64,000 nt of DNA from Cynocephalus volans (lineage: Eukaryota > Chordata > Mammalia > Dermoptera > Cynocephalidae): contig NC_084464.1 in NCBI RefSeq assembly GCF_027409185.1, positions 43,127,095 to 43,191,094 of the forward strand. Reading direction: 5' to 3'. Every line of letters starts with the position of its first letter. The first letter of the stretch is position 1. The translations under genes and the position numbers were made by a program. This document shows positions 9,057-45,870 of this stretch, one piece after another. The notes under the pieces were generated by a model that had not been told where the DNA came from, did no database searches, and saw only the letters and a list, made by a program, of their open reading frames with translations.

Positions 9057-12000
9057 CTGAGGCCACCACAGTGTCTGTGCCCACCACACCCTCCATGATA
9101 ACATCTGTGCCCGCCACAGTCTCTGAGATCCCCTGGCTTTCCACCGCAGAGACTGTTACTACAACAGCCTTCACCACAGCTTCTGAGGTCACCAAAGCCT
9201 CAATGACAGCTTCTGTTCCCACAAGGTCTTCTGCCTCAGTCTCTAAAACTGCCAAAGCCTCTACCAAAGGCTCAGAGGTTACTGCAGACTCTACGACAAA
9301 CAGAGCTTCTACCACGGACTCTGAGATGCTTGTATTCCCCACCACAAGGTCTGTGCCAACCACAGTCGCCAGCAGAGCCTCTGAGACCACTTCTTCTTCT
9401 GAGTCTATAGCGGCCTTAACCATGATCTCTCAGACCACAATGTCCTTGAAAATAACATCAATCCCCACCACAATCTTCACCTTAGGCTCTAAGAACATAG
9501 TCTATGAGTCTCCCAAGGCTTCCACCACCAACTCTGAGAGCACTCTGGCATCTGCGACATCCTCTGAGACCACTACAGTCTCCTCTAAAGTCTCTGTGAC
9601 ATCTAAGGAGTCTGTGCCCTCCACAACCACCTCGACGCCTGCTGTAACCACCACAGTATCGGTACCCATGACGCCCTCCACCATAACATCTGTGCTAACT
9701 ACAGTCTTCATCGTGACCTCTGAAACCACCACAGGCTCTAAGATCACTGCAGATTCCACAACCGCCTCAGGGACTACAGCAGAGTCTGGGTCCACTGTGG
9801 GCTCCACCACAGCATCTGTGCTCATCAAAGCCTCCAGTATAGTCTCTGATATCATCACGCCCTATAGGACAATGTCTGTGCACACCCTGAACTCTACTAC
9901 AGCCTCTGAGGCCACCCCAGGCTCTGAATCCACCACAGCCTTCACTGCAACATCTGAGAACACCTTGCTGTCTACCACAGCATCTGTGCCCACCACAGCC
10001 TCCACAATAACATCTGCACCCATCACAGCCTCCACGATAACATCTGCATCCACCACACACTCCACGATAACACCTGTGCCCACCACAGCCTCCGTGATAA
10101 CATCTGCGCCCGCCACACCCTCCATGATAATATCTGTGCCCACCAGAGCCTTCACCATGGCCTCTGAAACCATCACAGGCTCTGAGTTCACCAATGCTTC
10201 CAGCACAGTCTCTGAGAACACCATTCACACTGAAAAAACCACAGAGTCCCCCACAGTTTCTGAGACCGTCAGGTCCTCCACTGCAGGATCTGTGCCTGCT
10301 GTGGCCTCTACCTCAGCCTCTGAAACCACGACAGTCTCCACTAAAGCCTCTGCGACTAATTCAGGGTCAGTGCCTTCCACAGTTACCACAACACCTAATA
10401 AGATAATCACAGCCTCCACAATAGTCTCTGAGACCACCACACCATTCATGACAATGTCTGTGCCAACCACAAACTCCACCACAACCTCTGAGACCACCTT
10501 AGCCTCCAGCTCAAACTCTGAGTTCTCCACCATAGCATCGCTGACTATGACGGTCACTACTCCAGTCTCTGAGTCCACCTTGGCCTCTACCGTAATCTCT
10601 GAGACCACCTCATTCTCCACTATAACTTCTGTGCCCACCACAGCCTCTACCTCAGGCTCTAAGAACACAACAGCCTCTGAGACTGGCAAGGCTTCCACCA
10701 TTACCACTGAGACCACTACGATTTCCACCCAAGCCTCGGACACCACTCTGGCCTCTACCTGTGAGACCATTACAGACTCCACTAAAGCCTCTGTAACACC
10801 TGGAGGGCCTGTGCCCTCCACAGACACGGCAACTCCTGCTGTAGGCATAACATCTGTGCCCACCACAGTCTTCACCATAGCCTCTGACACCACTGTAGGC
10901 TATGAGACCACTACAGCTTCCAGCACAGCTTCAGAGACAACAGCAGAGTCTATGTCCACCGTGACCCCCACCATAGGCTCTGAGAGTAACACAGTCTCCA
11001 CCACAGCGTCTGTGCCCACAATGACCTCTATCACAGGCTCTGAGAGTAACACAGTCTCCACCATAGCGTCTGTGCCCACCGTGACCCCCACCACAGGCTC
11101 TGAGAGTGACACAGTCTCCACCACAGCGTCTGTGCCCACCGTGACCCCCACCACAGGCTCTGAGAGTAACACAGTCTCCACCACAGCATCTGTGCCCACA
11201 ATGACCTCTATCACAGGCTCTGAGAGTGACACTGTCTCCACCACAGCATCTGTGCCCACAATGACCTCTATCACAGGCTTTGAGAGTAACACAGTCTCCA
11301 CCACAGCATCTGTGCCCACGGTGACCTCTATCTCTGCCTCTGAAACTGAGGTCTTTGCCACAGCCTCTGAAAGCACCATAACCTCCACTATGGCCTCTGA
11401 GACTGCCACAGCCTCTGAGACCTCCATGGCTTCCACCACAGCCTCTGAGACCCCCACCACCTCCACAATAGTGTCTGTGCCCACAAGAGAGAACACTGCA
11501 GGGTCAGCCTCTGGGACCCCACAGCCCCCACAACAAGATCTGAGGCCAGCATGGCCTCTAGCACAGCCTCTGAGGTCACTTCACAGTCTGCTAGTGGCAT
11601 GGCTTCCACCACAGGCCCTGACACCACCACGTCCTCCACAGCCTCCTCCTCAGCCTCTCAGCTCATCGCAGACTTGTCCACTTTCACTGCGTCCTCCACA
11701 GCCAGCACCTCAGCTCCCGAGACCCTGCCTGTCTCAGACACAGCCTCCGAGAGCTCCCCGGGCTCCACTCCAGCAGCTGTGCCCACCGTGTTCCCCTCCA
11801 CAGCCTCTGGGGACACCGAAGCTTCCACCTCACCTTCTGGACCCACCACAGCCTCTGAGGTCACCACCACCTTTGCTTTGTCCTCATCACCCATCTCGGC
11901 CTCTGCCACCGCCTCTGGGGCCCCTGAAGTCTCCACCAGTGTCTCTGGACCTCTCACCGTCTCGGCCACCACCTTGATGCCCACCCAAGCCACCGACATT

Positions 12001-12270
12001 TCTGCTCAGCCCATCACCAGCACAGTTGTGTCAGGTACCAGCCACCACATGTTCTCTGAGCGCACACATTCTAACTCCAGTGACAGCCACCACCTTTTCA
12101 CTGTTCCTAGCTCCTCTGTCCTAGACTCCAGTCAAGCCCTGCACCAGGTAGACATAATTCTCTTCCCTCTTCTTGAAACCCACTCACCTGCTTTGTTTGG
12201 TGTCCACCACTTCCCTTCCAATCAGAAACACATATTTGCCAATATCACCCCCTCGCACAACACAAGTTAG
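9057..12270 (+). CDS. Mucin unit A: large Ser/Thr-rich ectodomain exon (MUC21/MUC22-type), with one frame break
   Basis: This probably encodes the O-glycosylated extracellular domain of a single-pass epithelial mucin. From an acceptor CTGTCAG|CT at 9056/9057 the frame reads A-E-A-T-T-V-S-V-P-T and stays Ser/Thr/Ala/Val-rich for about 820 codons. The phase (1) and first residues match unit C exon 2. At the C-run 11517-11520 the mucin composition jumps to another frame (SASGT, then TAPTTRSEAS) and continues to a TAG at 12268. A possible donor CCAG|GTAGAC lies at 12147/12148. Positions 10976-11335 hold six 20-residue repeats. TCN/ACN-rich sequence rarely makes stops, so openness alone is weak evidence of function. 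The frame break could be a real pseudogene lesion or a base-call error. Order and composition favour MUC22 or MUC21; I cannot separate them. Confidence 0.75.
10976..11335 (+). repeat. Six near-identical 60-bp tandem repeats within mucin ectodomain
   Basis: Six units with exactly 60-nt spacing. Each encodes a variant of GSESNTVSTTASVPTMTSIT. Differences are a few point changes: S/N or S/D, TMTSI or TVTPT, and one GSE to GFE. Neighbouring sequence has only loose 8-10-residue periodicity. The tight similarity indicates recent expansion or gene conversion. Confidence 0.92.
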
Positions 12271-12425
12271 TTAATTCTGTCCCTTCTGCCTCCAGCAAAC
12301 CCACCTCAACTCTGTTGCCAACCATCCCAGTGGTCAGAGGCGCTCTCTTCTGTGCCAGGTACAATCAGCTGTATTCAGCCCACCCTGTGACACCACGACC
12401 TCACGTCAATATACTGGCCCCTAGT
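12271..12425. other. Non-coding stretch following the ectodomain frame stop
   Basis: Continues directly after the TAG at 12268. It is still Pro/Ser-codon-rich in texture but has no sustained frame. It is either an intron of unit A or decayed exon. Confidence 0.35.
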
Positions 12426-12640
12426 CCAGGGGTTGGCAGCCATGCTTCATGGGTCAAGTCTCACGGGTTATCTGTTTTTGTAAATAAAGTTTTATTGGAA
12501 CACAGCTACACTCATTCATTTACCTATTGTCTCCAGCTGCTTTCTAGCTCCTCTGTGTAGCTGCAACAGAGACTGTATGACCCAAATGGCATAAAATATT
12601 TACCATCTGACCCTTTACAGAGAAAGTTTGCCAACCCTCG
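12426..12640. mobile_element. hAT-Charlie-type non-autonomous DNA transposon
   Basis: Terminal inverted repeats are visible: CCAGGGGTTGGCA at the left end and TGCCAACCCTCG at the right. The interior carries a familiar mammalian phrase, 'aaataaagttttattggaacac'. Flanks are similar (about CCCTAGTC and CCCCAGTT), consistent with a decayed 8-bp target duplication. These elements are old in eutherians. No transposase is encoded. Confidence 0.7.
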
Positions 12641-13375
12641 CCCCAGTTGAAGACCAAACGAGTTTTTCATACTCTGGCTCTTGCTCTGAATAAGACCAGC
12701 TCCGCTCTTGCCATCAGCACTCGGGTTGGATCTGATACTGTCCCCTCTGTTCTGAGCTCACTCACCTCTATTCCAGTGACTGGCACTATTCATGGAGACT
12801 TTAGTCCCTTCTGATCTAGGCACAACTGTTGCTACCTAAGGCAGCACCACCACTGTCCCCGCTGTATCAGATCCTATCACCTTGTCTGAGTCCACCCTCT
12901 CCTGTCCCTGTGACCGGCCTCCTCCTCGGGGGTCAGGTGCTTCTGCATCAGTTCCAAGCACACTCACCTGGACTTTGTTGACCACCACAGTGGTGCTAGA
13001 CCATGTCACTTGTGTTCCCAGCCACAGCCAGGAGTGAATCTGATTCCATCATCTCCTCCTCCAGCACCTTCCTCACACCCAGTGATCACAATCCCAAGAT
13101 GACCAGAACCCACCACCTTTTATCCCAGCCCACCCGCTTCTATTTGGGCGGCCACTTCTAAAGTGGAATAGATCTTCCACTTCTGCGTTAATCATGGTCA
13201 CATTTCCTCAGCCTTCTGCCTCCACCATCACCAACACAAGCAGTGGACTTGTCTCTCTTCCTCCTCTCCTCTAAGACCCCCACCTCTATTCTTGGCACCA
13301 TGGCCACAGGCAAATCACTTTCTACCATCTCTCCTCCCCCCACAACCCCTCTCCTGATCCCCCACCACCATAGGG
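12641..13375 (+). pseudogene. Degenerate mucin-like block between ectodomain and stem
   Basis: Ser/Thr/Pro-type codon texture persists (for example 'caccacagtggtgctagacc' near 12984 and 'ctgatactgtcccctct' near 12731), but stops and frame changes are frequent. It is either an intron derived from ancient repeat sequence or a decayed part of the mucin exon. No splice signals are convincing enough to decide. Confidence 0.4.
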
Positions 13376-13871
<496 letters not shown>

Positions 13872-15059
13872 TGAGTGTCTAGGGTGGGTTATTAGGGGAG
13901 CCTGGGGGGAGGGCAGATCATGAATGAGAGAGGAAATCATATAAACAGCGCTCTTAGGATATCCAGAATGAGGGAATAAGCTGGTGTGCTGGGAAGAAAA
14001 GAATCACACCGCATGATATGAGGACTGGAGAGAATTCAGTGAGTCTGATCAAGTGAGAAGTAAAGTAGAAAGAGGAGGAAAAAGATGAAGTTGGGGCCAA
14101 AGTGAAAGGAGATTGTGTGAACAGGGAATAAGACAAAGAAGACATTTAAAGAAAATCATGTTTGTTAACAAAACAAAATCTGGAATTTAGAATATTTTAG
14201 CACTGGAGTAAGAATCTCCAGCACGTGAGGACTCTTTACCCCTTTGCTGTATTTACTCATTTCCATTACAAATTTCAGCGCTTGCTCTGCAGGGCACATC
14301 TCTTTCCTTCTGATGCTTTCACATATGTAGAGGTGAACACTCTTTCCTTGATTCTCCTTGGGGCAGATGATTGGAAATGTCCAACACTTCCCTAGATACT
14401 GAGAGAAAACAAAAGGGAAAGAAATACAAGGAAAGCAAGAAACATGAAAACGTTCAACCACCCGAAGTGCAGGCTTCTGGTAGTCTTCATCTGACAAATG
14501 TCTGCTGCCTGCAGCAGCTGCAGTTCCTTGTTCTATTTGTGAGAGCTACTCTGACCTCCCATCGCACCTCTACTCTCTGGTCTGGATCTTTGAATACAAA
14601 TTTTTCCAGCACTGATTTTACATTTACTTATGTTGTCCCCGTTTTCTTATGATCAGTGGTGTGCTGGCGCTAGGTCATGCAGGCTCACAAGGGATTGTGC
14701 TTCCCTTCCCAATTCCGTGTGTAGTGATGTGACACTGGTAACTTAAAATATGCTGTGGTGGAAGTATTTACACTACAGAAATTGGCAAGCATGACAAATA
14801 AACACTTTTTGCCTCTGGAAAGCAAGTTATTAAATGTCGAACAACATACCACTGGTAAAAATGGACAAACAGATGAAAAAATTCACTGCAGCCACAAAGG
14901 GTAGGCTTAATATGGTCAATTTATCAATGTTCTGTATTTTGGAGATCTCAGCCTCCCTCCACAGGTAGGCTACAAAATAAAGACCCATCACCTAGGGATG
15001 ACTTCCTAAATTACTTTATAATTTTATTCGTAAGATCAAGAGATTATAATTAAAATGAA

Positions 15060-15240
15060 CACTGAGTTTTTACTAAGTGCTAGGTTCAGGGCTGAATGTT
15101 TAAAACACATCATGTCATTTAGTCTGCTCTACAATCCCATGGGGATATTATATTCATCTTAAAAGTGAGGGAGCTGGAGCTATCTGCCCCAGCACATGCG
15201 GTAAGTGGCAGGTCTAGGAATCTGACCCAGGTTCATGATT
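15060..15240 (-). repeat. MIR element
   Basis: Reads as MIR reverse complement: 'tttactaagtgctaggttcagggct', then an interior 'gggatattatattcatctt', then 'aagtggcaggtctaggaatctgaccca'. Old tRNA-derived SINE, non-coding. Confidence 0.65.
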
Positions 15241-15570: not shown

Positions 15571-15688
15571 TATTATTATTATGATGATGATGATGATTTT
15601 TGGTGGCTGGCCAGTACAGGGATTGAACCCTGGACACTGATGTTATCAGCACCATGCTCTAACCAACTCAACTAACTGGCCAATCCCT
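15571..15688 (-). repeat. Monomeric tRNA-Ile-type SINE
   Basis: The minus-strand reading starts GGCCAGTTAGTTGAGTTGG, then GCATGGTGCTGATAACA, with a degenerate B box (GGTTCAATCCC). The tail on the + strand is ATT/ATG-rich. Imperfect flanking repeats AAACTGGCAATTTT (15557-15570) and AAAATTGGCAGTTTT (15689-15703) look like a diverged target-site duplication. Confidence 0.8.
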
Positions 15689-15797
15689 AAAATTGGCAGT
15701 TTTGAAAAGTGAAAATCTGACATTGGTGAAACAGGCATGTCTAGTGATAAGGGAGAAGAGACTTAATTTTTATAATATTATTATTTGTTTCTTTTAG

Positions 15798-16112
15798 AGG
15801 GACTTTTCCTTCCCCATGAGAAATAGTGGTACTTACTATCCTCATGAGCACAACCTTGGCCTTGCTCTGGACCTGGGTTTTGGAATGTTCCACAGCCTGG
15901 GAAATTCACTTGTTTATGGAGAGGGACTTGGGATTGGATCTGGAGCAGCACATGGCTTTGAACATGGAGTGGGCCCTGGATTGAGCTACAGCCATGGAGG
16001 AGGTTACGGAATGAATCACGGTCGGAGTCATGGGCGTGGAGGAGGCCATAGCAACAGCTATGAAATGGACCACAGAGGAGGCCGTGGCAGGACAGAACGG
16101 CTGTGGCCGTAG
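15798..16112 (+). CDS. Mucin unit A: Gly/His-rich cytoplasmic tail exon
   Basis: Follows the acceptor CTTTTAG and runs phase 0 to TAG at 16110: RDFSFPMRNSGTYYPHEHNL, then about 84 residues rich in Gly and His with HGFEHGVGPG, SHGGGYGMNHGRSHGRGGG and a terminal RTERLWP. The S-x-x-R-N-x-G-x-Y-Y-x-H core corresponds to the tail exon in unit B (LSLRNTGKYYIHDLGLG) and, more loosely, unit C (LCLRNLFN...HPHG-like). The membrane helix precedes it, so this is expected in the cytosol. At 104 codons it is longer than the 64-codon unit C tail owing to the Gly/His expansion. The strong donor at 13871 leaves phase 2 in the membrane-helix frame but phase 0 in the stem frame, so splicing helix to tail in frame is not straightforward. 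Confidence 0.72.
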   Translation, partial: RDFSFPMRNSGTYYPHEHNLGLALDLGFGMFHSLGNSLVYGEGLGIGSGAAHGFEHGVGPGLSYSHGGGYGMNHGRSHGRGGGHSNSYEMDHRGGRGRTERLWP

Positions 16113-16193
16113 ACTGGATACTGGAAAATATTGTTGGGAAAACAAGCTTGGTGTGGGAGGAGTCATGGAGGAGAATAGAATGATCATGGAATG

Positions 16194-16199
16194 ATTAAA
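16194..16199 (+). terminator. Possible polyadenylation signal of unit A
   Basis: An ATTAAA hexamer lies 82 bp after the tail-exon stop. No other canonical hexamer was noticed in the next few hundred bases. It is only a sequence match. Confidence 0.35.
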
Positions 16200-16639
16200 A
16201 TGGAGCATAAAAAGGCTTCCAGGAGTGAACCACAGAAACGGGCATGGCCTAGGTCAAGAGAAAAATCAGCAAAAGGATTACTGAGACCCTGACCAACACT
16301 GGAAAAGATCAAGCAGAGACTAGCTCTGAAGGAGATACTCAGCTTTGCCAGGCTCGAAGTTGATGTGAATCCACAGCTCCCGTGAGTTCTACCCAAATCT
16401 CAGACTCTGTTGTAAGGCATCCTGGCCATCACCCGCAGGACATCTTCCCTCCCACCTCCCACCATCCAAGCCACGTCAATGTTTCTCATCTCTCTGTTTC
16501 TTCAGGATGCTGTAAACGTTACCATGACATCTCTAAGAAACAAACACGCATAATGAATGTATTATCAGTACCACCTGCTTGTTTGTTTTCCTATTTCTTC
16601 TTTCAGTTTTTAAAAATTTTGTGCATGGGGTAGGGTGCA

Positions 16640-25184: not shown

Positions 25185-26258
25185 CCAAAAGACTATGAAC
25201 GATAAATGCTGGCGAGGCTGCGGAGAAAAAGGAACTCTCATACATTGTTGGTGGGACTGCAAAATGGTGCAGCCTCTATGGAAAATGGTATGGAGGTTCC
25301 TTAAACAATTGCAAATAGATCTACCATACGACCCAGCCATCCCACTGTTGGGAATATACCCAGAGGAATGGAAATCATCAAGTCGAAGGTATACCTGTTC
25401 CCCAATGTTCATCGCAGCACTCTTTACAATAGCCAAGAGTTGGAACCAGCCCAAATGCCCATCATCAGATGAGTGGATACGGAAAATGTGGTACATCTAC
25501 ACAATGGAATACTACTCAGCTATAAAAACGAATGAAATACTGCCATTTGCAACAACGTGGATGGACCTCGAGAGAATTATATTAAGTGAAACAAGTCAGG
25601 CACAGAAAGAGAAATACCACATGTTCTCACTTATTGGTGGGAGCTAAAAATTAATATATAAATTCACACACACACATACACACATACACACACAAACCGG
25701 GGGGGGGGGAAGAAGATATAACAACCACAATTATTTGAAGTTGATACAACAAACAAACAGAAAGGACATGGTTGGGGGGGAGGGGGGGAGGGAGAAGGGA
25801 GGGAGGTTTTGGTGATGGGGAGCATTAATCAGCTACAATGTATATCGACAAAATAAAATTAAAAAAAAAAAAAAAAAGAATTGGGAAGAGTGAAAAAAAA
25901 TAAAATAAAATAAAAATAAACATATGCAATTAGTTGTTCAAAATATAATGGAATAGGACTCCTATAACTAGACAGATTTTGTAAAATCTCAAATATAAGG
26001 TAATTCATTTTATTTGCGTGAAATAATTTTTTGGGAAAAATATATTCGTGTACTTAGTACTTAGGCATATCTGTACAAAATACAAAGCATGGGTGTAACT
26101 TAAATATGTAATGTTACTACTGTACTTTTCCTCGTTTCCCACTATGGAGGTGGTCAATAATGACTAAGGTAGAATTTTCCTGGGGGCGCAGATTCTGATT
26201 AACTATGATTCACAGAAATAAAGTGTCATTTATTATACAACCAAAAAAAAAAAAAAAA
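25185..26258 (+). mobile_element. Young 5'-truncated L1 with 3' transduction
   Basis: 25185-25647 encodes an intact C-terminal piece of L1 ORF2p (residues such as [33 protein letters not shown] and [13 protein letters not shown]), ending at TAA 25645. A 3'UTR follows with CA-rich and G-rich tracts, and a first A-tail near 25861-25878. About 365 bp of unrelated sequence (25879-26242) then leads to an AATAAA at 26216-26221 and a second A-tail. The whole is bracketed by AAGACTGAATCTACA at 25170-25184 and 26259-26273. A read-through transcript using the downstream poly(A) site explains this. It lacks the endonuclease and reverse-transcriptase domains. Confidence 0.88.
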
Positions 26259-26273
26259 AAGACTGAATCTACA

Positions 26274-26842: not shown

Positions 26843-29325
26843 AAGACTGAATCCAAAAGAAATAGAAAACGTGAATAAACCAATAACAAAGAATTGGTAA
26901 TCAAAAACCTAACAGCAAAGACAAGCTCAGGACCAGAATGCTTCACAGGTGTAGGCTACCAAACATTTAAAGAAGAATTAATACCAATACTTCCTGATCT
27001 CTTCCAAAAAGTAGAACAGTGAAAACATCTGAGCTCTCTTTTTGAGGCCAGCATCACCCTGATGCCAAAGCCAGACAAAGACACCACAAGAAATGAAAAA
27101 CTACAGGCCAATATCCCAGATGAACATGGATGCAAAAATCCTCAACAAAATATTGGCCAGCCAAATTCAACAGCACATTAGAAGGATCATATACCACCAC
27201 CAAGTGGGACTTATCCCTGGGATTATTCAAGGACGAGTCAATGTGACACACCACATTTACAGAATGAAGGACAACAATCACATGATCATCTCAATAGAAG
27301 CAGAAAAAACAGTTGACAAAATTCAACACACTTTCATGATAAAAACTCAACAAACTAGGTATAGAGAAATTTACCTTGATACAATAAAAGCCATATATGA
27401 AAAGCCCACAGCTAACATAACACAATTGTGAAAAACTGAAAGCTTTTTCTCTAAGATATGGAACAAGACAAGGATGCCCACTTCTATTCAACATAGTACT
27501 GGAAGTCTTAGCCAGAGCAACGAGACAGGAAAAAGAAGTAACAGGCATCCAAATCACAAAGGAAGATTTAGAATTATCTCTTTCCAGATGACATGATCTC
27601 ACACATGGAAAACCCTAAAAACTTTACAAAAAACTGTTAGAACTAACAAATTCAGCAAAGTTGCAGGATACAAAATAGATATAAAAAATCAGCTGTGTTT
27701 CTATACACTAACAATGCATTATCTGAAAAGAAAACAATCCCATTTACAATAGTATCAAAAAGAATAAAATACTTAGGAATAAACTTAACCAAAGAGATAA
27801 AAGACTTGTACACTGGAAGCTATAAACACTGATAAAAGAAACTGAAGACACATCCACTTACTGGCCAGCTACCAAAAAAAATGGAAAGAAAGAAATTGAA
27901 GACACAAATAAATGGAAACACATCTTATATTCATGAGCTGGAATAATTAATATTACTGATATGTTTAAACTACCCAAAGTGATCTACAGATTTAATGAAA
28001 TCCCTATCAAAAAATACCTATTTCAATGGCATTTTTAATAGAAATAGAAAAAAAAAATTCTAAAATTTGTATAGAACCACAAAAGACACTGAAAAGCCAA
28101 AGCAATTTTGCACAAGAACAAAGCTGGAGGCATCACACTTCCCGATTCAGAATATATTACAAAGCTATAGTAATCAGAACAGTATAGTACTGGCATAAAA
28201 ACAGATATATAGACCAGTGGAACAGAATAGAGCACTCAGAAATAAACCCACACATATACAGTCCATTTATTTTTGTCAAAGACACCAAGAATACACAATG
28301 AATAAAGAATAGTCACTTCAACAAATAGTCCTGGGAAAACTGGATATCCACATGCAAAAGCATGAATTTGGACCTTTATTTCATACCATACACAAAAGTC
28401 AACTCAAAATGGATTAAAGACTTAAATGTAATACCTGAAACCATAAAACTCTTAGAAGAAAACATAGGGGAAAAGCTTCTTGATACTGGCCTCGGTGATG
28501 ATTTCTTGGATACAACACTGAAAGCACAGGAAACACAAGCAAAAATAGACAAGTAGACATACGTCAAACTAAAAAGCTTCTACACAGCAAAGGAAACAAT
28601 CAGTAGAGTAAAAAGTCAGCCTACATAATGGGAGAAAATATTTGCAAACCGTCCATCTGATAAAGAGTTAATATCCAAAATATATAAGGAACTTCTTCAA
28701 CTCAATAGCAAAAGAACAAAACAAATAACCCAATTAAAAAATGGCAAAGAGCCTGAATAAACATTTCTCTAAAGAATACATACAAATGGCCAACAGGTAT
28801 ATGAAAAGGTGTTCAACATCGTTAACCATCAGTGAAAAGAAATCAAAACCACAGTGTGATACCACCTCATACCTGTTAGGGTGGCTTAAAAAAGAGAAAG
28901 GTAACAAGTGTTGGTGCAGATGTAGAGAAAAGGGAACACTTGCACACTGTTGGAGGGAATGTAAATTGATGCAGCCACTATGGAAAATAGTGGCTGTTTT
29001 TAATTTTTAAAAAATTAAAAATAGAACTACCATATGATTCAGCAGTGCCACTACTGGGTATATATCCAAAGGAATTGAAATCAGTATGTCAAAGAGATAT
29101 CTGCACTGCCATTTTCATTGCAGCTATTCACCGTAGCCAAGATCTGGAAACAAAGTAAATGACCCTCGACAGATGCATGGATAGAGAAAATATGGTATAT
29201 ACAAACATAATGGAATACTATTCAGCCTTTAAAGAAGGAAATTCTTCCATTCACAACATCATGGCTGAACCTGGAGGACATCAGGCTAACTGAAACAAGC
29301 TCATCACCAAAGGACAGATACTACG
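26843..29325 (+). repeat. Host L1, 3' portion (degenerate ORF2)
   Basis: Contains the reverse-transcriptase region in broken frames, for example [20 protein letters not shown] at 27093 and onward with [15 protein letters not shown], but several stops and shifts follow. The 3' end lies near 29325 ('gctgaacctggaggacatcaggctaactgaaacaagctcatcaccaaagg'). Inactive. A small SINE tail sits at about 27857-27882. Confidence 0.8.
27857..27882 (+). repeat. Very short SINE tail inside the host L1
   Basis: 'ttactggccagctaccaaaaaaaa' matches the end of the local SINE. It is flanked by GAAACTGAAGACACA and GAAATTGAAGACACA, an imperfect target-site duplication. Confidence 0.6.
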
Positions 29326-29645
29326 TGCAGGAACAAGCACAGCCTCTTTTACCCAGGAAACAACCATCACTGGATTGGGCACGTCTATCCTTATCCCAGG
29401 CACCATTATCATGAGGAAAGGAACCACAACCTCTGCACAATCCTCAGGGATCCCCCACCATCAAAAAAGAAACATAAACCTAAGTCTGGTACAACTAAAA
29501 TTGAAGCAAGCACACCCCTAAGCCTAGGTCCAACCATCACAGGAAAATGCACAACTCCCTCCACCTCAGTCACCTCTGGCTCTGGGACCACTTCTGTTTC
29601 AGGAAATACCAGCCCTGGAAGGTGAACAATCCTATGTGGCCAAGC
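29326..29645 (+). pseudogene. Mucin unit B: decayed stem remnant
   Basis: Broken Thr/Ser/Pro/Gly-rich text remains: 'acaagcacagcctcttttacccaggaaacaaccatcact', then 'acctcagtcacctctggctctgggaccacttctgtttcaggaaataccagccctgg'. A stop (TGA) follows, where units A and C have the membrane helix. It directly abuts the L1 nest. The signal-peptide exon and repeat domain are absent or destroyed. Together with the tail remnant at 30547 this is an unprocessed, duplicated mucin pseudogene. Confidence 0.65.
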
Positions 29646-29884
29646 CCAGCCCCCTGGGTATACATGTGAGGTAAGAGGTACCTTAAACAACATGTGGAAG
29701 GTGGCAGGGTATAGATGATGAAGCCCACTCTCTAGCCATAAAGGGTTCCATTACTTTTAAACTCTAAAATGTCCTCCATTTGGAGAGCATCACACAGAGA
29801 TCACATCTACTAGTTTTCTCCTAAGCATGTTGGCTCTCTTTTATTCAAGATCAACAGACAGTAGCAATAATAATGATAGATAAT

Positions 29885-30125: not shown

Positions 30126-30546
30126 TAATAGACTTCAGAACTGTGGCTCATCCAGAGATGTTACTCCTGGTCTCACACACAAACATTTCCTTAGTTAATA
30201 TAGTGACTAATCCCTGTCCTTTGGTGGTAATCCATCCCCTGAACACTGAGATGTTGATTTAGTTTTGTTTTGCAAATTCCACCATATTATATTGGTACAG
30301 CATGTCAATGAGAATACACAAGCACTGAAGATCATTATTTCATTTGATTTTTGCTTGTTTTGCTGTTTTCTCAGAGAGAGATATAAGATATGAAGAAAGA
30401 CACAGAGAAAGTAGGGAGATTAGAAAGATATTTTTTAAAGTGGTCTTTTCTAAAAAGTGAAAGTCTATGACTTTAGTCAACCAGGAAGGTTGTGAAATGG
30501 GAGAGAAGGATGGATCTCTTAAAATATCACCACTTTTCTCTTTCAG

Positions 30547-31070
30547 AAGGATATCCTTCTGTCCCTGAGAAACACTGGCAAGTATTATATCCATGACCTA
30601 GGCCTGGGTCCATTGTCCTGCAGCTCAACAATGGACTGAGCCATGGAGGGGCCCATGGCCTTGGCTGTAGGAAGCTATAATATGGGCTATGAACAAAGTC
30701 ACAGTCCCGAAGGTGACTGTGGAATGAGTCAAGGTGTCTGCTGAGGAGGTCATGGTGGAAGCTGTGGAAGAGACCATTGAAGAGGCCGTGTCAGTGATGG
30801 CCACAAGGAAGACCTCGAGGAGACAGTGGAGGGGGCCATGGCCACAGCCACTGGGTAATGGGAAACATTCTACGGAAGGGAACCTTGGGGGAAGAGCAGG
30901 TCATGGAGAAGCAGAAGACAAAGAGCCATGCAGGGGGGGTGACCAAAAGTGTTCTCAGGGAATGGCCATAGTGCATGGCCTAGATCAAGGACAGGACCAA
31001 GGAGTCCGACTAACAAGGCTAGGTCAAGCAGAGAGTGGTTATGAAAAAAGCCCTCAGCCTCATTAGACCT
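30547..31070 (+). pseudogene. Mucin unit B: broken tail exon
   Basis: After the acceptor CTCTTTCAG at 30546 the frame reads KDILLSLRNTGKYYIHDLGLG, phase 0. It clearly parallels the unit A tail, but is soon broken (a TGA in 'atggactgagcc' near 30635). Gly/His/Met codon texture persists to about 31040 in shifting frames ('gccatggaggggcccatggcc', 'aatatgggctatgaacaaagtcacag'). Sequence after the tail ('gtgcatggcctagatcaagg') also aligns with that after unit A ('ggcatggcctaggtcaag'). Non-functional. Confidence 0.75.
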
Positions 31071-31268
31071 GGAAATGATCTCAAGTAAGTGCATTCCCAA
31101 GGCTTTCCCCATAACTCAGAAACTCAGGATCAAGGAGGTTCCTGGCCCTTGATGGGGCGGAGATGGACACAGTGACTGCAGACAAGCCAGCTTCTTTCTC
31201 ATTCTCCCTCTACCCAGGTCATTCCTGTGCCCTTCAGCATTTGACTTTGTCTTTGGAAAGAGTCTTCC

Positions 31269-34247: not shown

Positions 34248-34312
34248 TCCTCAATCACATCTGGGACCCAGGAGCCTGCCCTTCCAGCCCTATGCAGGCA
34301 AGTGATCTCAAG

Positions 34313-34376
34313 ATGAAGAGAAAATCATTTTTCCTTACATGCTGGCTGTTTCACCTTCTTCTACTTTTAGGACACG
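34313..34376 (+). CDS. Mucin unit C: signal-peptide exon
   Basis: Encodes M-K-R-K-S-F-F-L-T-C-W-L-F-H-L-L-L-L-L-G-H then one base, G, before the donor GTGAGT at 34377. A basic start followed by a Leu/Phe-rich hydrophobic core is a classic secretory signal for entry to the ER. An in-frame upstream ATG at 34292 would add seven residues. I prefer 34313 because its context, CTCAAGATGAAGAGA, aligns with CTTAAGATGAAAAGA at the unit D start. The exon ends in phase 1, matching the acceptor phase of exon 2 in units A and C. The preceding acceptor lies at 34247. Confidence 0.75.
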
Positions 34377-35557: not shown

Positions 35558-36517
35558 ATGTGGAATAGTACATGGATTAAGGTCTAGTGCTGGGGTCAGA
35601 CTGCTTTGGTTTAAATGCCTTGTTTCACTTCAGGAAATAGGACTGGACACAGACTTCATGAATACGACCCCAAAAGCACGGGCAACCAAAGGAAAAATAA
35701 ACAAATGGGATTATATCAAACTAAAAAGCTTCTGCACAGCAAAAGAAACAATTAACAGAGTTAAAAGACAACCAACAGAGTGTGAGAAAATATTTGCAAA
35801 ATATACATCTGACAAAGGATTAATATCCAGAATATATAAGGAACTCAAACAACTTTACAAGAAGAAAACAAGCAACCCAATTAAAAAATGGGCAAAAGAG
35901 CTAAGTAGGCATTTCTCTAAGGAAGACATACAAATGGCCAACAGACATATGAAAAAATGCTCAACATCACTCAGCATCCGGGAAATGCAAATCAAAACCA
36001 CACTGAGATACCATCTCACCCCAGTTAGGATGGCTAAGATCCAAAAGACTCTGAACGATAAATGCTGGCGAGGTTGCGGAGAAAAAGGAACTCTCATACA
36101 TTGTTGGTGGGACTGCAAAATGGTGCAGCCTCTATGGGAAATGGTATGGAGGTTCCTCAAACAACTGCAGATAGATCTGCCATATGACCCAGCTATCCCA
36201 CTGCTGGGAATATACCCAGAGGAATGGAAATCATCAAGTCGAAGGTATACCTGTTCCCCAATGTTCATCGCAGCACTCTTTACAATAGCCAAGAGTTGGA
36301 ACCAGCCCAAATGTCCATCATCAGATGAGTGGATACGGAAAATGTGGTACATCTACACAATGGAATACTACTCAGCTATAAAAACGAATGAAATACTGCC
36401 ATTTGCAACAACCTGGATGGACCTTGAGAGAATTATATTAAGTGAAACAAGTCAGGCACAGAAAGAGAAATACCACATGTTCTCACTTATTGGAGGGAGC
36501 TAAAAATTAATATATAA

Positions 36518-36567
<50 letters not shown>

Positions 36568-36950: not shown

Positions 36951-37042
36951 CATTATTATTAGTAGTAGTAGTAGTAATAGTTGCAAAAGCAAACCAAATT
37001 TCCAGTGGAACTAACCAGCCATCCTGTCTTAATCAGCATTAG

Positions 37043-37353
37043 CTTCCGATGGTCACGCCACAACCACCGTGCCCACATCACCCACACCTTCCACCGCTCT
37101 CCTCCCTGGACCAACCACAACCATATTCTCTGGACCCACCGCACCTTCCAGTGGAACTAATACAACAGTGTCAGCCCCAGCCTCCAGTGGAACTAAGACA
37201 ACAGCCACAATTTCCAATGTCACCAGCACAAGTACTGCCCCTCCAAGGGATGAGAAAAGACATAACAGGCACCTGAGGCCGTGGGAAGTCGTCCTAATCA
37301 CGCTGGCCTCTGTTGCAATGGCTGTGATCCTCTTCACTGGCTCCTCTTCTATT
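37043..37353 (+). CDS. Mucin unit C: short mucin stem and membrane exon
   Basis: Joined to exon 1 in phase 1 (G+CT = Ala), the frame reads A-S-D-G-H-A-T-T-V-P-T. About 60 Ser/Thr/Pro-rich residues follow (a doubled SSGTNTTVSAP / SSGTKTTATIS motif), then a basic juxtamembrane stretch, PRDEKRHNRHLRPWE, and a hydrophobic helix, VVLITLASVAMAVILFTG. The PWE-hydrophobic layout is what I recall for MUC21-type mucins. The ectodomain is far shorter than in MUC21 or MUC22, which could fit an HCG22-like gene. The donor is uncertain: GTGTGG at 37354 keeps phase 0 with the tail, whereas the better-looking GTGGGT at 37356 would not. Confidence 0.7.
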
Positions 37354-37675: not shown

Positions 37676-37870
37676 AGAAACTCTCTGTGCCTAAGAAACC
37701 TCTTCAACACAGATCTCCACCAGCCCCATGGCTCCAACCTTGGTCCATACCCTCAAGGCTATTATGGAGATCAAAATGGATCGAGTACAACTGATTCCAG
37801 AGACCAGTGTCCTCCTGTAGCCATGGAGATGACTGGGAGACAGTGTCTAGCCTCGCGGTCCTCAGGGTGA
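37676..37870 (+). CDS. Mucin unit C: MUC21-like cytoplasmic tail exon
   Basis: After GTTGTTTAG (ending 37675) the phase-0 frame has 64 codons and a TGA at 37868 with no internal stop. It begins RNSLCLRNLFNTDLHQPHGS, has a Gly/Tyr/Pro middle, and near the end reads PPVAMEMTGRQ. RNSLxLRNxF, the HPHG-like piece, and AMEM-x-GR near the C terminus correspond to features I recall in the MUC21 tail, which is of similar length. This is the strongest support for family membership and for unit C being intact. It is expected on the cytosolic side of the membrane helix. Confidence 0.78.
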   Translation, partial: RNSLCLRNLFNTDLHQPHGSNLGPYPQGYYGDQNGSSTTDSRDQCPPVAMEMTGRQCLASRSSG

Positions 37871-38179: not shown

Positions 38180-38358
38180 TTTTTCTTTTCTTTTCTTTTT
38201 TAAAAGATGAGTGGTAAGGGGATCTTAACCCTTGACTTGGTGTTGTCAGCACCACGCTCTCCCAAGTGAGCTAATCAGCCATCCCTATATAGGGATCCGA
38301 ACCCGTGGCCTTGGTGTTATCAGCACCACACTCTCCCCAGTGAGCCACGGGCTGGCCC
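38180..38358 (-). repeat. Dimeric tRNA-derived SINE with target-site duplication
   Basis: The minus strand reads GGGCCAGCCCGTGGCTCACT, then GGTGCTGATAACACCAAGGC, GGTTCGGATCCCTATATAGG, a second half, and a poly(A)-like tail (TTTTCTTTTC on +). A 16-bp duplication, TCTGTCCTACTTTCTT / TCTGTCCCATTTTCTT, lies at 38164-38179 and 38359-38374. Confidence 0.9.
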
Positions 38359-38374
38359 TCTGTCCCATTTTCTT

Positions 38375-41300
38375 ATCCCCTCCCCCGAGGCCTCTGAGAA
38401 TGAAATCAGGAAAGATGGGGAAGGCAGGTGCTGGACTTTACAGATTTGTTTTGCATGATGGAAAAATGGTCTCTGCGTGAGCTTAGAACATAAAGAGGGG
38501 AAAGTGCTCATGTGTGTTGTGAGGTAGAGAAGGACTTGCTAATGGGGCCACTCCTGTCTGCTCCAGGCTTGAGCTCTTCACAGGGAGGGCAGGTATGAGT
38601 TGCCACCTTTCTGTCCTGTGGGCTCCCAGCCCCAGAGGCCGGCCTGGGCAGGGAGAACATGCTCCCAGTTTCTGCAAGGTCAGGTCCGGCTCACCCTGCT
38701 AGGAATGAGATTCTCAGCAGCCCCTGCAAAACCAGGCCTCAGACAGGGACACAACGTCTGTGTGTCAGCACCACGCTCTTGCTGAAGGCCCGGCCCTGTC
38801 AAGGCCTCAGCGCACTTCGCTCCTCCTACACACACTCCACTGACTCTTTCTCGCTGCGAATGAATCACTGGCCTCTGTGTTGTCAGCTTAACCCTGCTAA
38901 GTCTCTTCAGTTTCTGGGGTTCTTAGCCTTGGTCTTTGCAAGAGTCTTAACAGGACCAAAGTGGTTTCTGTATATACACTTTAAAGTACTGTTAACAAAA
39001 TTGTTTTTAACAGCTGTGTAGAAGCCAGATACAAGAGAGTACCTACTTATGATTCCATCTGTATGAAATTCAAGAATAGTCAATATTAATCCATAGTGAC
39101 AGAGATCAGATCACTGATCTCCTATGAGGGTGAGGATATTTAGGAAGGGGCACTTTTGGGGCAATAGATATGTTGACTGTGCTGTTGGGTACACACTTAA
39201 ATACATTTGTCAGAATTCATTTAACTGCATACTTAAGATCTGTGCACTTCACTGTTTGTAAATTTTCCCTCACTAAAAACAAAAACTGTATAGTAGTTTT
39301 TAAAAAACAATATCTTTGAAGGTAGTAACTAATCTTCAGCTTTAATAGCACCCAGTCATTTATCCTAAAATAATTACCATCTTCTTCATTCATTTCTTCA
39401 CTCATTCATTCACCACATTTACTGAGCACCTGGTTGGCACAGAGTCCCGAAAAGCTGGGGAGTCAAGGATGGACATGTAGGTCACAGTTTGATGAAGGAG
39501 ACAGACTTGTAGACAGATAAATTACAGGCCAATGCATCAAGTACTGTAAATTAACGTACCCCAGGAGGAAAAACACAACTTGACCAGAGGGAGGAGGGGC
39601 TGACTCACATAAAGATGACACTTGGATTATGAAGATTTAACAAGTTTTAATGAGGAGGAGAAGGGGAAATGCCAGGCAAGTGTCCAGCTTGTGCAAGACC
39701 AGGTGTGGCATGGCCGGTGAAAGGCCAGAGACTTGTAGGACTGGATCGCCCAGCAGAGGGAGATAAGGTCAAGGGGTTAACTGTGTGGCTTCAAATGCCA
39801 CACCAAGGTTCATCCTATAACAACAAAAATCCAACAGATCAAGTTAAGGTGTAGTGAAAATTTTTCTTTCAAGCAAGTAGATTCTGATCACCTGATTGAG
39901 TAGAAAACAGAAGCTGGAATCCAGTAAAGAAGCTGTTGTAATATCCCAGTAAAGAACGAAACAAACAAATCCAAGACCACAAACCATGGAAAGGGGAATC
40001 AAGAGGGAAAGTGGATTTCCAGAGATTTCTGACTAGCACTTTTTAAAAATCTCCATCTGTAGAATTCACGGTGACTTTTATTAAAAGTCCCATGTTAGGG
40101 AGGTCTTCATTTAACAGCTCTAGGCAATTTTCTTAAAACTAATTCACCAAATGACTAATTCTTTGAATTTTCTTATTTCCTTTTTTTTTTCTTCAATCCT
40201 GCTCCTTCTGAATCTTGTTTCCTTTAAATAATATTCAACATGTCTCTCTCTTTCTGCAGCTGGAGACTGAGGGATAGACAGAAGGGAGACAGGGAATGTT
40301 TTTTTGATTATGGCATGCTTTATAGCCAAGAACATACTCAAGGAAAATATGTTTGTTTATTAAAAATTTTCATATGAGACTATATTCAAGAACATATGCA
40401 AGAGAAATTGTTTATTCTTGACTCTGAGAGTAATTGCAAATATTATTCCTATAAATAATATATAAATTATAGTCAAAACAATAAGACTACAAAGTATATG
40501 AGTCCATTCATATGACATTCCGGAAATGGCAAAATTATAGGAATATAAGCCAGATATATTCTGCCAGGGTTTGGGTGGGAGAAGGGTTGACTATAAAGGG
40601 ACAGCATAGGGGGAGCTGGGGGACCCCAAGTGATTTAGTGTGGTGAGTACATGACTTCCTCATTTACCAAAATCCGTAGAACTGTACACTAACAAAGAGT
40701 GAATTTTACCATATGAAAATTTAGCAAATTAACTAGGTTGTGGGGGGGGGAAGGTAGAAGGAAGACTGGCGAATGAACCAGATAACACCCTGGAGGGGAT
40801 GGGAAAGAAGGAGCTGACCTAAGTAACCTTGAGCAACAGTGTTTTGACTGTAAGGCTAAAGACAAAAAAACTGCACGCAAACACTGTACTCTAGCTGGTA
40901 AATTTGTTTCTCACATGGGTATGAATTAGCAATTCTGAAACCACTATTTGTTTGCTAGGGTCCAACAGCTAAGTAAAAATATTGTAGCTGTACAGATCCA
41001 TGTAACAGAAAGAAGTTACAGATCAGTAAAGGGGAGAGGCTGGAACCAACCCTGTGTTGCTGGTTGGAACTGGAGCAAATGTGCTCAAGCTCATGTGTAA
41101 TACGTGTGCAGATAGATAATTACAGAAATAAATTTAGATAGGTGTTTATGTGAGTTAGTATACATGTGTATATTTCCTGGCTCTAACTTCTGTGAGGGAC
41201 ATGAAGCAGTGACACCCATTAGCAATGAGTACACCTAGATCCCAGATTTTGGTTTCTAAATACTATTCTCTAATAAAAAAAAGAGGAGCCAGAGCTCTGT

Positions 41301-41552
41301 GGAGAAATGGTTGATTCCAGGAACTGGGCAGAGAAAATATAAAATGAGCATGAAGCTTCTTGTGATGCTAGAACACAAGAAAGTGCTTTTTAAAAAGGAT
41401 GGAGGATGTTAAAAAGGCACTGGTGCCAACCTAAATGGTCACCCAAGGGCCAAAGTTTGAGCAACAAAATAAATAGTGATAGTATTGGATCATAACTCAC
41501 AGAACAAAATACATACCTATGAGTCCATGCTGACATAAACAGCTGAATAAAT
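38375..41552. other. Gene-free interval
   Basis: No gene is recognised. It contains scattered old-repeat text and a CTCF-core-like word, CCCAGCAGAGGGAG, at 39749-39762. The 120-codon frame at 38659 has no recognisable domain. Confidence 0.4.
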
Positions 41553-41561
41553 AAATTGGAG

Positions 41562-41668
41562 GAGCTGGCCGGTTAGCTCAGTTGATTAGAGAGCAGCCAG
41601 CCTTGTAACACCAAGGTCAAGGGTTCAGATCCCCATATAAACCAGCCAACAAAAAAGAAAAAAAAGAA
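41562..41668 (+). repeat. Monomeric tRNA-Ile-type SINE
   Basis: GAGCTGGCCGGTTAGCTCAG, then TTGTAACACCAAGGTCAAGG and GTTCAGATCCCCATA, then an A-rich tail. Flanked by AAATTGGAG at 41553-41561 and 41669-41677. The clearest tRNA-like head in the window. Confidence 0.9.
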
Positions 41669-42718
41669 AAATTGGAGAGAAGGCACTCCTTTCAGAAGAA
41701 TTTCAATTAATAAATCTGGAGGGAATAAGGGACACCTTTAGAACCCCACAGTGACAGCTGCTGCAGGAAAGATGCACCAATGGATGCTGATATTAGCAAG
41801 TAAAAATTTAGGCAAAACAGGATATTTGCATAGTCTCAAATATCTCCCCCCAAATGTTTAGTAATTACAAAGGAAAAAACAGTATCTTTACAGTGGAGAC
41901 TCCTGCCTAACATCATCTTAACCAAGTAACCAGGGTGAACATCACAGTAACACGTCGTGTTGATCTCAGGTGCTCCCTGATATGCCGCACTGGGAAGGGT
42001 ACATCGCCTCTATGGTATCCTCCCCAGTAATTCACAACCTCCACTCAGTCAGAAGAAAATAGGCCATTCTGTAAAATATCGGGCCAGGACTCTTCAGAAG
42101 TGTCCACATCGTGAAAGACAAAGACAGAGGAACTGTCGCAGACAGCAGGAGCCTAAAGAGACCTGAAGCGTACATGCCAGGTGGTATCCCAGATTGGATC
42201 CTAGAACAGAAAAAGGGCATTAACGGAAAAACATGTGAAATCTGGATAAATCCTGGAGTTTACTTAATAGTATTGTACCAATGATAATATCTTAGTTTCT
42301 ATAAATATAATTGTACTATATAATACGTTGACATGAGGAAAAGCTGGGGAAGGAATATATGAGAAGTCTCTATACTATTTTTGCAACTCTTCTGTAAGTT
42401 TAAAATTGTCTCAAAAGGAAGTTTTAAAAGTTTTAAAACAAAACAGAAAAACATCAGGGACCTCTACATGAAAAAGGGTGAATTTCACTATATGCAAATT
42501 ATACCTCTTGACACACACAAAAAGTATATATATACAAATACTTTTTGAATGTGTCTAAATTATATTCTTAAAAACATTTAATACATTTAAATAACATTAG
42601 TAGTTGAAACAATCAATTAAATTTGGTAAGCTGGCCATTCATTAAATTGACTTTCAGGAAATCAGCAGCTGTCTAATAGGGGAACAAGCTCCTGACCTTC
42701 CTGTGATTCTCAAGCTCC

Positions 42719-43218
42719 TATTTTATTTTTTAATTTTTATTTTTATTTATTTTACTTCTCAGTATCCATTGTAGTTGATTTTCATACCCCTTTACCCATT
42801 CCTCTCCACTCCACTCCCCCCAACATATCTGTTCACTTGACTTAAAGAATTCAAGGAATTTTTTCTGGTTATTCTGTCTTCTTCCCCCTGACCCTTGATT
42901 TGTTTGTATATTTATTTATTATTTATTTATTTATTTTTAGCTCCCACAAATAAGTGAGAACATGTAGTATTTCTCTTTCTGTGCCTGAGTTGTTTCACTT
43001 AATATAATTTTCTCTAAGTCCATCCATGTTGTGCGAAGGGTAGTATTTTGTTCTTTTTTATAGCTGAGTAGTATTCCATTGTGTAGATGTACCACAGTTT
43101 CCTTATCCACTCATCAGATGATGGACATTATGGGCTGGTTCCAGCTCTTGGCTACTGTAAATAGAGCTGCAATACACGTTGGAGTACGGGTATCCCTTCA
43201 GCATGATGATTTCCAGTT
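42719..43218 (-). repeat. L1 3'-end fragment, older than the young copies
   Basis: On the minus strand the text runs from ORF2 end ('gggctggttccagctcttggctactgtaaatagagctgc' as seen on +) to a 3'UTR ending near 42719 in T-rich sequence on +. Diverged from the young copies and non-coding. Confidence 0.75.
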
Positions 43219-44102
43219 AGGAGGACACTGGGAAGGAGAGAGACCCTGCAAGTGGCAGGAAATGCCCCTGAAGGAAAACGAGACCAACTTTGATTTTCTG
43301 GACAGTGTTGAATGAGGCAGGGATGAGGGTCAAAGAAGGAAGTAAGAGATATGGGCATTGTCATTCAGGCATGACAGGACCTTTGGATGTGAGCTCATTT
43401 TGTCTAGTAATTGAAGAGAGCTCATTGGGATAAAGGTACTCATGTGACGGGTGCAAAGAGGGGATCTGTGGGCTGGAGAGAAACCAGTGCAAAGCGTCTG
43501 GTGCATGACTGAGAGAAGAGGTCAATTTTCAGAGGGAGAGATGGGTGTTCCAGGCCCCCCATGAATGCTACTCCCTCTCTGTTAAGGACCGAGGTGGCCT
43601 GCACCCTCTGACATCTAGCCCGCCTCTCGCCACGTGCTGTTCCCCCAGGCAGGCCTGGCCCATACCCTCTGTGGTCACCCTGGCCTTACCACCCCACCTG
43701 TGGAAAGGAAACCCAAGGCCCTCTCTGAGCACTGAGACATCGAATGGAGGACAGTCTTCATCTAGGGATCTGCTTCTGAAGGTGATGCCACCCACGCTGG
43801 CAAGCCCGATCCCTGCTACTGCTCAGCTCTGGACTCTGGTCCCATGCCAAGAGCCCCTTCGTGCCCCTGTGACATCTCCCTTCTGCCATGCCCTGCCGTG
43901 CCACTCTTCTGTATCAGATGCTTCTTTCCTTGAGTGACAGAGAGTAATGGTGCAGGCTGCTCCTCCCTCAGGATGGAAGACCCAGGAGCCCTGGAATCCC
44001 ACAACCACAGAGGGCCGAAGGAGAAGGAAAGATTGAAAAATAAATTGAGAAGAGGAGGGAGGAGGAGGTGTCCTGGCTCCCAGTTTTGTGAATTCTCTTA
44101 AG

Positions 44103-44175
44103 ATGAAAAGAGGAAAATGCCCCAGCACATCCCTCCTCCTGCCACCGCTGCTTCTGCTCAGGTACTCAGAACTGG
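44103..44175 (+). CDS. Mucin unit D: signal-peptide exon
   Basis: ATG in context CTTAAGATGAAAAGAGG, matching the unit C start. It encodes MKRGKCPSTSLLLPPLLLLR then YSEL and one base before the donor GTGAGT at 44176. The basic start, Leu-rich core and phase-1 end are the same as in unit C. The downstream part of unit D is decayed, so this is probably a relic exon of a pseudogene. Confidence 0.55.
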
Positions 44176-44657
44176 GTGAGTGATTAGTTTGGGAGACGTG
44201 GACTCAAAGGTTCCCCAGGGCCTGGAGAAATGGGGTGGGATCCCTGGAAGAGGAACCCCTTGGACCCAGGCAGGGCCAGTCCTCAGCAAAGGCAGGTGGG
44301 TGAAGCCTGGCAGCTCCGGACCCTGCTGTCGCCCCCAACTCGCTGCCTCTGGGAAGCAGGTTCCCAGCGTCCTGCTCCTTCTCATCCTCACATCCCCTTT
44401 TAGGGAAATGCTCTGTTTTTGATTATTTATACTTTGAATTTCTGCATTTTAACTATCTTTGAGAAATGAAAGATTTAAGCCCTATTAGAGGGATTTGGGG
44501 AGCCAGCAGCTGATAGAGAGGAATTGTTTGGGGCAGAAGGACCCAAAACTCCAAAATTTATACCATATATGCTGCATTTATCCCTAAGAATAAATATTCC
44601 CAGTTCTGAATCCTGCCGATGGTGGTGAGTGGATGAAGATGGAGGGGACTCATCTTT

Positions 44658-44735
44658 TCTTTCTTTCTTTCTTTTTTTTTTTTTTTTTGTGGCATCTGGT
44701 CAGTAAGGGACCCTTGACCTTGGTGTTATAACATC
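44658..44735 (-). repeat. Truncated SINE
   Basis: On the minus strand: ACACCAAGGTCAAGGGTCCC, then 'ttactgaccagatgccac', then poly(A). Flanking CATCTT...CTTTCT words are compatible with a target duplication. Confidence 0.7.
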
Positions 44736-45442
44736 TTCTTTCTACTGTCCAGCACAGTGCTGCTGTCAACTCCAACTGGACCATACCCACCACCACTTAT
44801 GACTACTCTCCTGCTGCTGCCCCCAAACCATGCTGAATCCATCTGCCTCCACTCTTGCCACTTCAATCCAAGGTCTGACCCAGGAGTTGTCTCATTCCAA
44901 ATCATATACCAAGCCATGACCTGAATTTAATTTCTCATATGAATCATCACTTCTGCCTCATTTGTTTGCCAGAACCCCAGGCATAAGTGAGTGAGAGGAG
45001 ACGCAGACGAACACAGAGTCAGAACACCTCAGTTTCTGAAACACCAATACAGAGGGGAGTGAGGCAGAGGAAGTCAGGTTTACCGCTCCATGGGAAGAGA
45101 CCAGGTCTGGAAAAGACAGAATCAAAGGCTGGGGAAGCAGCCTTCTAAGGACATGGCTTACCTCTAGATAACCCATATTGTAGTGCAAGAGGATTCTTTG
45201 TGGAATATGTCCTATCAGAGTTAAATTAAAAATATCAGATAATCCTTAACTCAAATAAATCCAACCACAGGACCCAAGGAGATGTGTCATTTGCATGGGA
45301 GGACAGTTATGACAAAAACCAAGCAGAGAAGATGAGGATAGGCCATCGACAATCCACCTTAAATAAGATTACTTTTGCATAGGAACAAGCCGAAATATTT
45401 CCCCTAAGGGCCCAGACCAGCCCTGAAGACTTGAGAACAGTA
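44736..45442. other. Gene-free interval inside unit D
   Basis: Possibly includes decayed mucin text near 44760-44830 ('ctccaactggaccatacccaccaccactt'), but there is no sustained frame. The rest is non-coding. Confidence 0.35.
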
Positions 45443-45870
45443 GAAAATTATATTACTGCAGACTCAAGGACAACTGAGAGCTCTATCACGGTAGAGCTGG
45501 AGACCACTGAGGACTATGTCACCACAGATCCGGGGACCACTGAGGACTATTGCTGCAGACTAAGAGACCACTGAGTACTATGTCACTGAAGAACCTGGGA
45601 CCACTAAGGACAATGTAATGGAAGCACCATGTCAGCAAAGAAACTGGGACCACTGAGGACTATATCACTGAAGACCCAGAGACCACTGAGGACTATGTCA
45701 CTGAAAACCCGGGGATCACAGAAGAGTATATCACTAAGCATCCTGAATAAGTTCAGTCACAGCAGTGAAACCCACCGAGCTCCTGACCCCCATGGGAATT
45801 ATCCTTATACCCCTGGGTGTAAGCACAGTCACTGTTGTTCTCTTTGTTGAACTTTGCTTCATTGTGGTAT
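45443..45870 (+). pseudogene. Mucin unit D: decayed acidic-repeat domain and membrane segment
   Basis: The frame begins ENYITADSRTTESS, then repeats an 11-residue motif, TTEDYVTTDPG, about six times to 45745. A short deletion near 45550 throws it out of frame to a TGA. Later units are readable in other frames, and the last ends KHPE-stop. After the repeats, 'CCC ATG GGA ATT ATC' begins a hydrophobic stretch, PMGIILIPLGVSTVTVVLF then VELCFIV (45788-45868). It parallels the unit A helix ([14 protein letters not shown]). No tail exon was found. The Glu/Asp/Tyr repeat differs strongly from the Ser/Thr repeats of unit A. Related to this mucin family, but the gene symbol is not assigned. Confidence 0.6.

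Follow-up and report, generated by a model that had tools for sequence, protein, structure and literature searches.

Human MUC21 (epiglycanin), a gene of the class I region of the major histocompatibility complex, and its neighbours are the closest described counterparts of the locus considered here. HCG22 (PBMUCL2) and MUCL3 (DPCR1) are neighbouring mucin-like genes in human, and the repeat unit of MUC22 (PBMUCL1) is 10 residues long. As far as the excerpted parts of the cited papers go, the repeats of human MUC21 are 15 residues long (PMC9001685) and 28 in number (PMC11199685), the human coordinates give MUC21, then MUC22, then C6orf15 (PMC7848197), and in a bat gene table (PMC4753418) DPCR1 and MUC21 share a strand and C6orf15, on the opposite strand, comes next. 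The stretch of DNA analysed here, referred to as the window, comprises 64,000 nucleotides of Cynocephalus volans (contig NC_084464.1, positions 43,127,095 to 43,191,094 of the forward strand), and four units named A, B, C and D lie in tandem on its plus strand. All positions given below are those of the window.

It is very probable that four membrane-mucin genes of the Epiglycanin_C (MUC21/MUC22) family, in various stages of decay, form a same-strand tandem cluster in the window, A being a long, nearly intact MUC22-like mucin with 10-residue repeats, B a dead duplicate of the 3' part of A, C a unit of the MUC21 type by its tail with only about two units left of its repeat array, and D a diverged member of the family whose acidic, tyrosine-bearing stem is disrupted by frameshifts. 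An earlier note, made by a model from the letters of this DNA, had proposed four related membrane-mucin units on one strand and had assigned them to the MUC21/MUC22 family. The family itself is known, and a probable tail exon of D at 47744-47824 and the wider extent of the decay are added here to that account.

All of the window but about 24.0-29.3 kb was read directly, exons were translated, and relatedness was assessed with Pfam and tblastn searches, with held-out profiles and by comparing the DNA of the units. The Pfam entry Epiglycanin_C (PF14654) is a model of the membrane anchor and tail of MUC21 with a cut-off of 27 bits, and its scores are independent of the human MUC21 C-terminus, a provisional rather than database-derived sequence, that is part of all six held-out models. 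This provisional C-terminus matches Epiglycanin_C at 3.2e-27 and so belongs to the right family. The target set of the held-out profiles was 2,808 six-frame open fragments of the window.

Epiglycanin_C matches the joined helix and tail of A at 4e-29 (101.1 bits), and the two pieces of A alone score 43.3 and 42.1 bits, both above the cut-off (helix, 4.1e-11; tail, 1e-10). The joined helix and tail of C, with an X at the frame break, reach 36.5 bits (5.6e-9), again above 27. Each of the three helices and each of the three tails that were held out is recovered as the top match outside the training set: the helices of A at 1.6e-11 (next match, 0.63), C at 1.6e-7 (next, 0.95) and D at 0.021 (next, 1.8), and the tails of A at 0.038 (next, 0.28), B at 0.01 (next, 0.089) and C at 3e-5 (next, 0.88). 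In pairwise tblastn searches with window sequences only, the A helix finds the C helix at 5.6e-4 and the D helix at 0.003, ahead of a next match at 0.34, and the A tail finds the decayed B tail starting at 30547 (2.3e-4; 28% identity over 110 columns), the next match being a low-complexity one on the minus strand at 0.002. In agreement with the earlier note, the units are thus related to each other by Pfam, tblastn, held-out profiles and a DNA block common to A and B, and the family assignment stands for A and for joined C, with a weak match for D. Tail and helix exons unlike each other or unlike MUC21/MUC22, the outcome named beforehand as fatal to the proposal, were looked for and did not occur.

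The proposed layout was likewise recovered. The signal exons of C and D end in phase 1, and in A, C and D a Ser/Thr-rich or acidic stem leads through PWG, PWE or PMG into a hydrophobic helix. The tail exons of A, B and C start in phase 0, carry an R-N core and follow good acceptors at 15798, 30547 and 37676; this part of the earlier description holds, but the phase-2 donor of A prevents a clean join to its tail. The start context shared by C and D gives two matches against 0.08 expected, the pattern having been written from these two exons. A scan for signal exons, which is not very selective, gives six plus-strand candidates if nested starts are included, and two on the minus strand.

Several results weigh against a cluster of this kind. 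Epiglycanin_C gives no match to B, matches D in the helix only (0.002, 18.7 bits, below 27), and with the C pieces taken alone gives 20.8 bits for the helix, below 27, and no match for the tail. The C tail finds the A tail only at an E value of 3.0 in window-only tblastn, behind chance matches including one at 0.09, so that by window sequence it retrieves neither the A nor the B tail significantly. The human reference in the profiles is a provisional one, the spacing of the C repeats is 36 base pairs (bp) as against 45 bp for a 15-residue MUC21 repeat, and the scan, by its criteria, finds a signal exon in the window for neither A nor B.

Table 1. Exons and other features of units A to D in the window
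Unit	Feature	Position	Strand	Remarks
A	First stem exon	9057..12034	+	Ser/Thr-rich, 30/60-bp repeats; open frame shifts near 11510
A	Second stem exon, PWG and helix	13470..13870	+	Helix 13782-13871 in helix frame; GTGAGT donor 13871
A	Copy of A/B duplicated block	15688..16427	+	Tail exon and flanks
A	Tail exon	15798..16112	+	104 codons and stop, core MRNS; Epiglycanin_C 1e-10
B	Possible stem remnant	29321..29670	+	Ser/Thr-rich pieces and QPW remnant
B	Copy of A/B duplicated block	30436..31147	+	
B	Tail exon, decayed	30547..30861	+	Core LRNT; 4 in-frame stops along alignment to A
C	Signal-peptide exon	34313..34376	+	Ends in phase 1; earlier in-frame ATG at 34292
C	Stem and PWE helix	37043..37360	+	Helix 37267-37341; frame break near 37341, damaged donor region
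C	Tail exon	37676..37870	+	RNSLCLRNLFNT..., MUC21-type
D	Signal-peptide exon	44103..44175	+	Ends in phase 1; start context in common with C
D	Acidic repeats	45389..45746	+	TTEDYVTxxPG units of 11 residues (33 bp), at present spread over three frames and interrupted by stops; candidate exon start
D	PMG membrane helix	45747..45866	+	Hydrophobic 45783-45860, PMGIILIPLG; candidate donor 45867
D	Probable tail exon	47744..47824	+	KKSFLHPLSPSTRVIYHPHAMNWNAP and stop; absent from the earlier note

A good acceptor precedes the first stem exon of A at 9057, and the reading frame of this exon contains one stop between 9059 and 12030 as against 57 and 59 in the other two plus-strand frames. The first 820 codons are open, and the 821-residue stretch consists of 28.5% Thr and 20.6% Ser. 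The 30-bp and 60-bp arrays correspond to units of 10 and 20 residues, and A therefore has the Ser/Thr repeats of about 10 residues in a long stem that characterize MUC22, a likeness to human MUC22 in stem and repeat length, not in compared sequence. A presumably descends from a MUC22-like gene. A search of a protein database with the A helix and tail returned no match and hence no mammalian relatives. The phase of the second stem exon, from 13470 on, matches that of the first, and the intron between them contains what we take to be an old MER5-type element. The ratio of non-synonymous to synonymous differences (pN/pS) of the 60-bp repeats is 0.50, as against 0.55 and 0.49 in the wrong frames, and because the wrong frames are similar it says nothing about selection.

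The A/B block aligns over 780 columns of coding and non-coding DNA with 58.8% identity and 88.3 bits, as against a best score of 32.6 bits in 19 other plus-strand blocks and of 28.3 bits in 100 Markov shuffles. Because the similarity extends beyond the coding sequence, B reads as an old, dead duplicate of the 3' part of A. The DNA match between the possible stem remnant of B and the stem exon of A is weak (E = 0.058).

Unit C resembles human MUC21 in its tail, in PWE before the helix and in a remnant of SSGT-type repeats. The tail is the top window match of the provisional human MUC21 C-terminus, with 45% identity over 60 columns (1.7e-9). C differs from MUC21 in that its stem has only 79 residues (41% Ser/Thr) with about two remnant units, SSGT-type copies at 37146 and 37182, and in that the frame of its helix, PWEVVLITLASV, is broken near the end. 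Tandem Ser/Thr repeats of 15 residues, as in MUC21, were not found in C. A third copy of the stem motif lies at 37000-37017 in the intron immediately 5' of the stem exon, as if the coding array had formerly extended further 5'. In 100 shuffles, a pattern written from the copies of the C motif is never matched; a second one, modelled in part on the MUC21 repeat, gives two matches against 0.15 expected. We infer that C descends from MUC21. MUC22 follows MUC21 in the human coordinates, whereas here the MUC21-type unit C follows A on the 3' side. If A is MUC22-like and C is of the MUC21 type by descent, the order is opposite to that in human on one strand, given the strands usually assigned to human MUC21, MUC22 and C6orf15. 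D is placed where a further member such as HCG22 or MUCL3 could be expected, a likeness of position without compared sequence.

As sequenced, every unit carries damage and none is a clean gene. The earlier note had spoken of a decayed copy and an acidic-repeat member lying among the others; B is indeed dead and D acidic, but the damage was understated. That these two lie interspersed may, as the note proposed, reflect lineage-specific birth and death. B and D are clearly broken, and C combines a break in a functional part with a shrunken stem. A is a borderline case: its frames are otherwise open, and the places where they change fall in or close to runs of four to five C. After the shift near 11510, the Ser/Thr-rich frame runs to the donor at 12035. 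The frame changes a second time in the stretch from about 13740 to the helix, which contains a run of five C, and the GTGAGT donor leaves phase 2 as sequenced, which allows no in-frame join to the tail at the first AG.

The chances are about even that A is a working MUC22-like gene whose breaks are sequence errors or belong to one allele, which would confine gene death to B, C and D. The long open frames on either side of the break, the intact tail and the strong Pfam match are what a working gene would leave, but the irregularities of A are three separate ones, two frame changes and a donor phase, and the three copies of long interspersed element 1 (L1) in the window show alignment gaps confined to low-complexity runs, which speaks against a generally poor, indel-ridden sequence and hence against sequence error in A. 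The same L1 copies, together with the irregularities of A, the break in the C helix with its damaged donor region, and the several stops or frame changes in B and D, would agree with a cluster that is dead as a whole, in which A and C are pseudogenes like B and D and mucins of the MUC21/MUC22 type are absent from the species unless others lie outside the window. We consider this possible though doubtful. A is open over 820 codons, open again after the change and open in its tail; since 0.40 stops are expected per 1% of change, any loss of A is recent. In addition, the frame changes at or near short runs of C may be sequencing errors, and an alternative acceptor AG two bases further on could put the A tail back in frame.

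A bolder version, which we hold to be rather unlikely, is that the species has lost the entire MUC21/MUC22-type cluster, A last, from a gene order unlike that in human, and that the cluster formerly held in D an acidic, tyrosine-bearing mucin that was perhaps sulphated like a selectin ligand. To our knowledge, an acidic, tyrosine-bearing mucin like D is a kind not known from the MUC21/MUC22 family.

The assignment of tail exons to A, B and C was correct but incomplete, as D probably has one too, judged from its phase, position and alignment score. The candidate has the right phase and lies about 1.9 kb 3' of the helix; YHPH is retained in it, but the R-N core is missing. In the profile lists it appears only at chance level (E = 0.67 or worse). 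When 198 acceptor-like phase-0 exons of the plus strand are ranked by start-anchored alignment, it takes fourth place with a score of 16.0, behind A, B and C, all three of them references; the next exon reaches 7.2, as does the highest-scoring of 179 minus-strand exons. Its single scores are 29 against the provisional human tail, 19 against A, 12 against C and 4 against B. That D instead lies outside the family, as a signal-like open reading frame (ORF) and a hydrophobic stretch that arose by chance on either side of an unrelated acidic repeat, is very improbable: its helix falls under the Pfam cut-off, its repeats are unlike those of the other units, its tail candidate combines a missing R-N core with poor profile values, and the signal scan finds minus-strand candidates as well, but the helix is the top held-out match, the start context is shared with C, and the tail candidate scores well above 194 other plus-strand and all the minus-strand exons.

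As members of a MUC21/MUC22-type cluster, the units would each be built to encode a type I surface protein with a signal peptide, a Ser/Thr-rich stem, one membrane helix and a short cytoplasmic tail. The stem would carry dense O-glycans and extend off the surface of epithelial cells as a bristle, with the helix as its anchor and the tail in the cytoplasm. The acidic, tyrosine-bearing repeats of D would give a charged stem, and their sulphation is a guess. O-glycosylation and an epithelial role are presumed, as is a location of the cluster in the major histocompatibility complex (MHC), the last solely from the family assignment. In excerpts of the papers concerned, MUC21 of squamous epithelia is linked with resistance both to apoptosis and to killing by natural killer and T cells (PMC9001685, PMC10588101), and the resistance to apoptosis required both the repeats and the tail (PMC9001685). 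A mammal in which the whole set has been lost or remodelled, if this is true, would be a natural knock-out for the purpose of these mucins, and dead copies among live or nearly live ones would show turnover in the number and kind of mucins. Among the matches listed from open-licence papers, none deals, in its title or the opening of its abstract, with the copy number or decay of the MUC21/MUC22 cluster across mammals; the nearest are the bat map of MHC class I genes (PMC4753418) and a survey of bovine mucins that names MUC21 and not MUC22 (PMC3056801).

A fifth unit was sought with window-only helix and tail profiles and rejected, as these recover just the known units among the 2,808 fragments. 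Outside the A stem and a CAC array, the window contains 154 ORFs of at least 75 codons. Of the nine sent to Pfam, one is a cytochrome b5 and eight have no match; within this coverage of 9 of 154, no MHC flanking gene was recognised in the window, and neither were MUCL3 (DPCR1) and C6orf15, between which a MUC21/MUC22 cluster would be expected in the MHC class I region. The cytochrome b5 copy (60890-61279, minus strand) is open over 130 codons (Pfam Cyt-b5, 2.4e-14) and is probably a processed copy because it is apparently without introns.

Three young-looking L1 3' ends lie at 25212-25713, 36068-36551 and 52937-53420 and are 96-97% alike in their shared ungapped blocks; the L1 at about 35.6-36.7 kb sits in the C intron downstream of the signal exon. 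Short interspersed elements (SINEs) derived from tRNA-Ile, also in a dimeric form, mark colugos. Two SINE copies on the minus strand, at 15608-15681 and 38206-38281, are called tRNA-Ile and tRNA-Val, respectively, by ARAGORN, and both are called tRNA by Rfam; the tRNA-Ile-like copy suggests a colugo. A CAC/CAT triplet array (62518-62868) lies near a 17-bp minisatellite (63305-63440). An inverted repeat pair at 49778-49983 and 51359-51542 has arms of 118 nucleotides at 87% and 97 nucleotides at 73% identity, with a spacing of about 1.4-1.5 kb.

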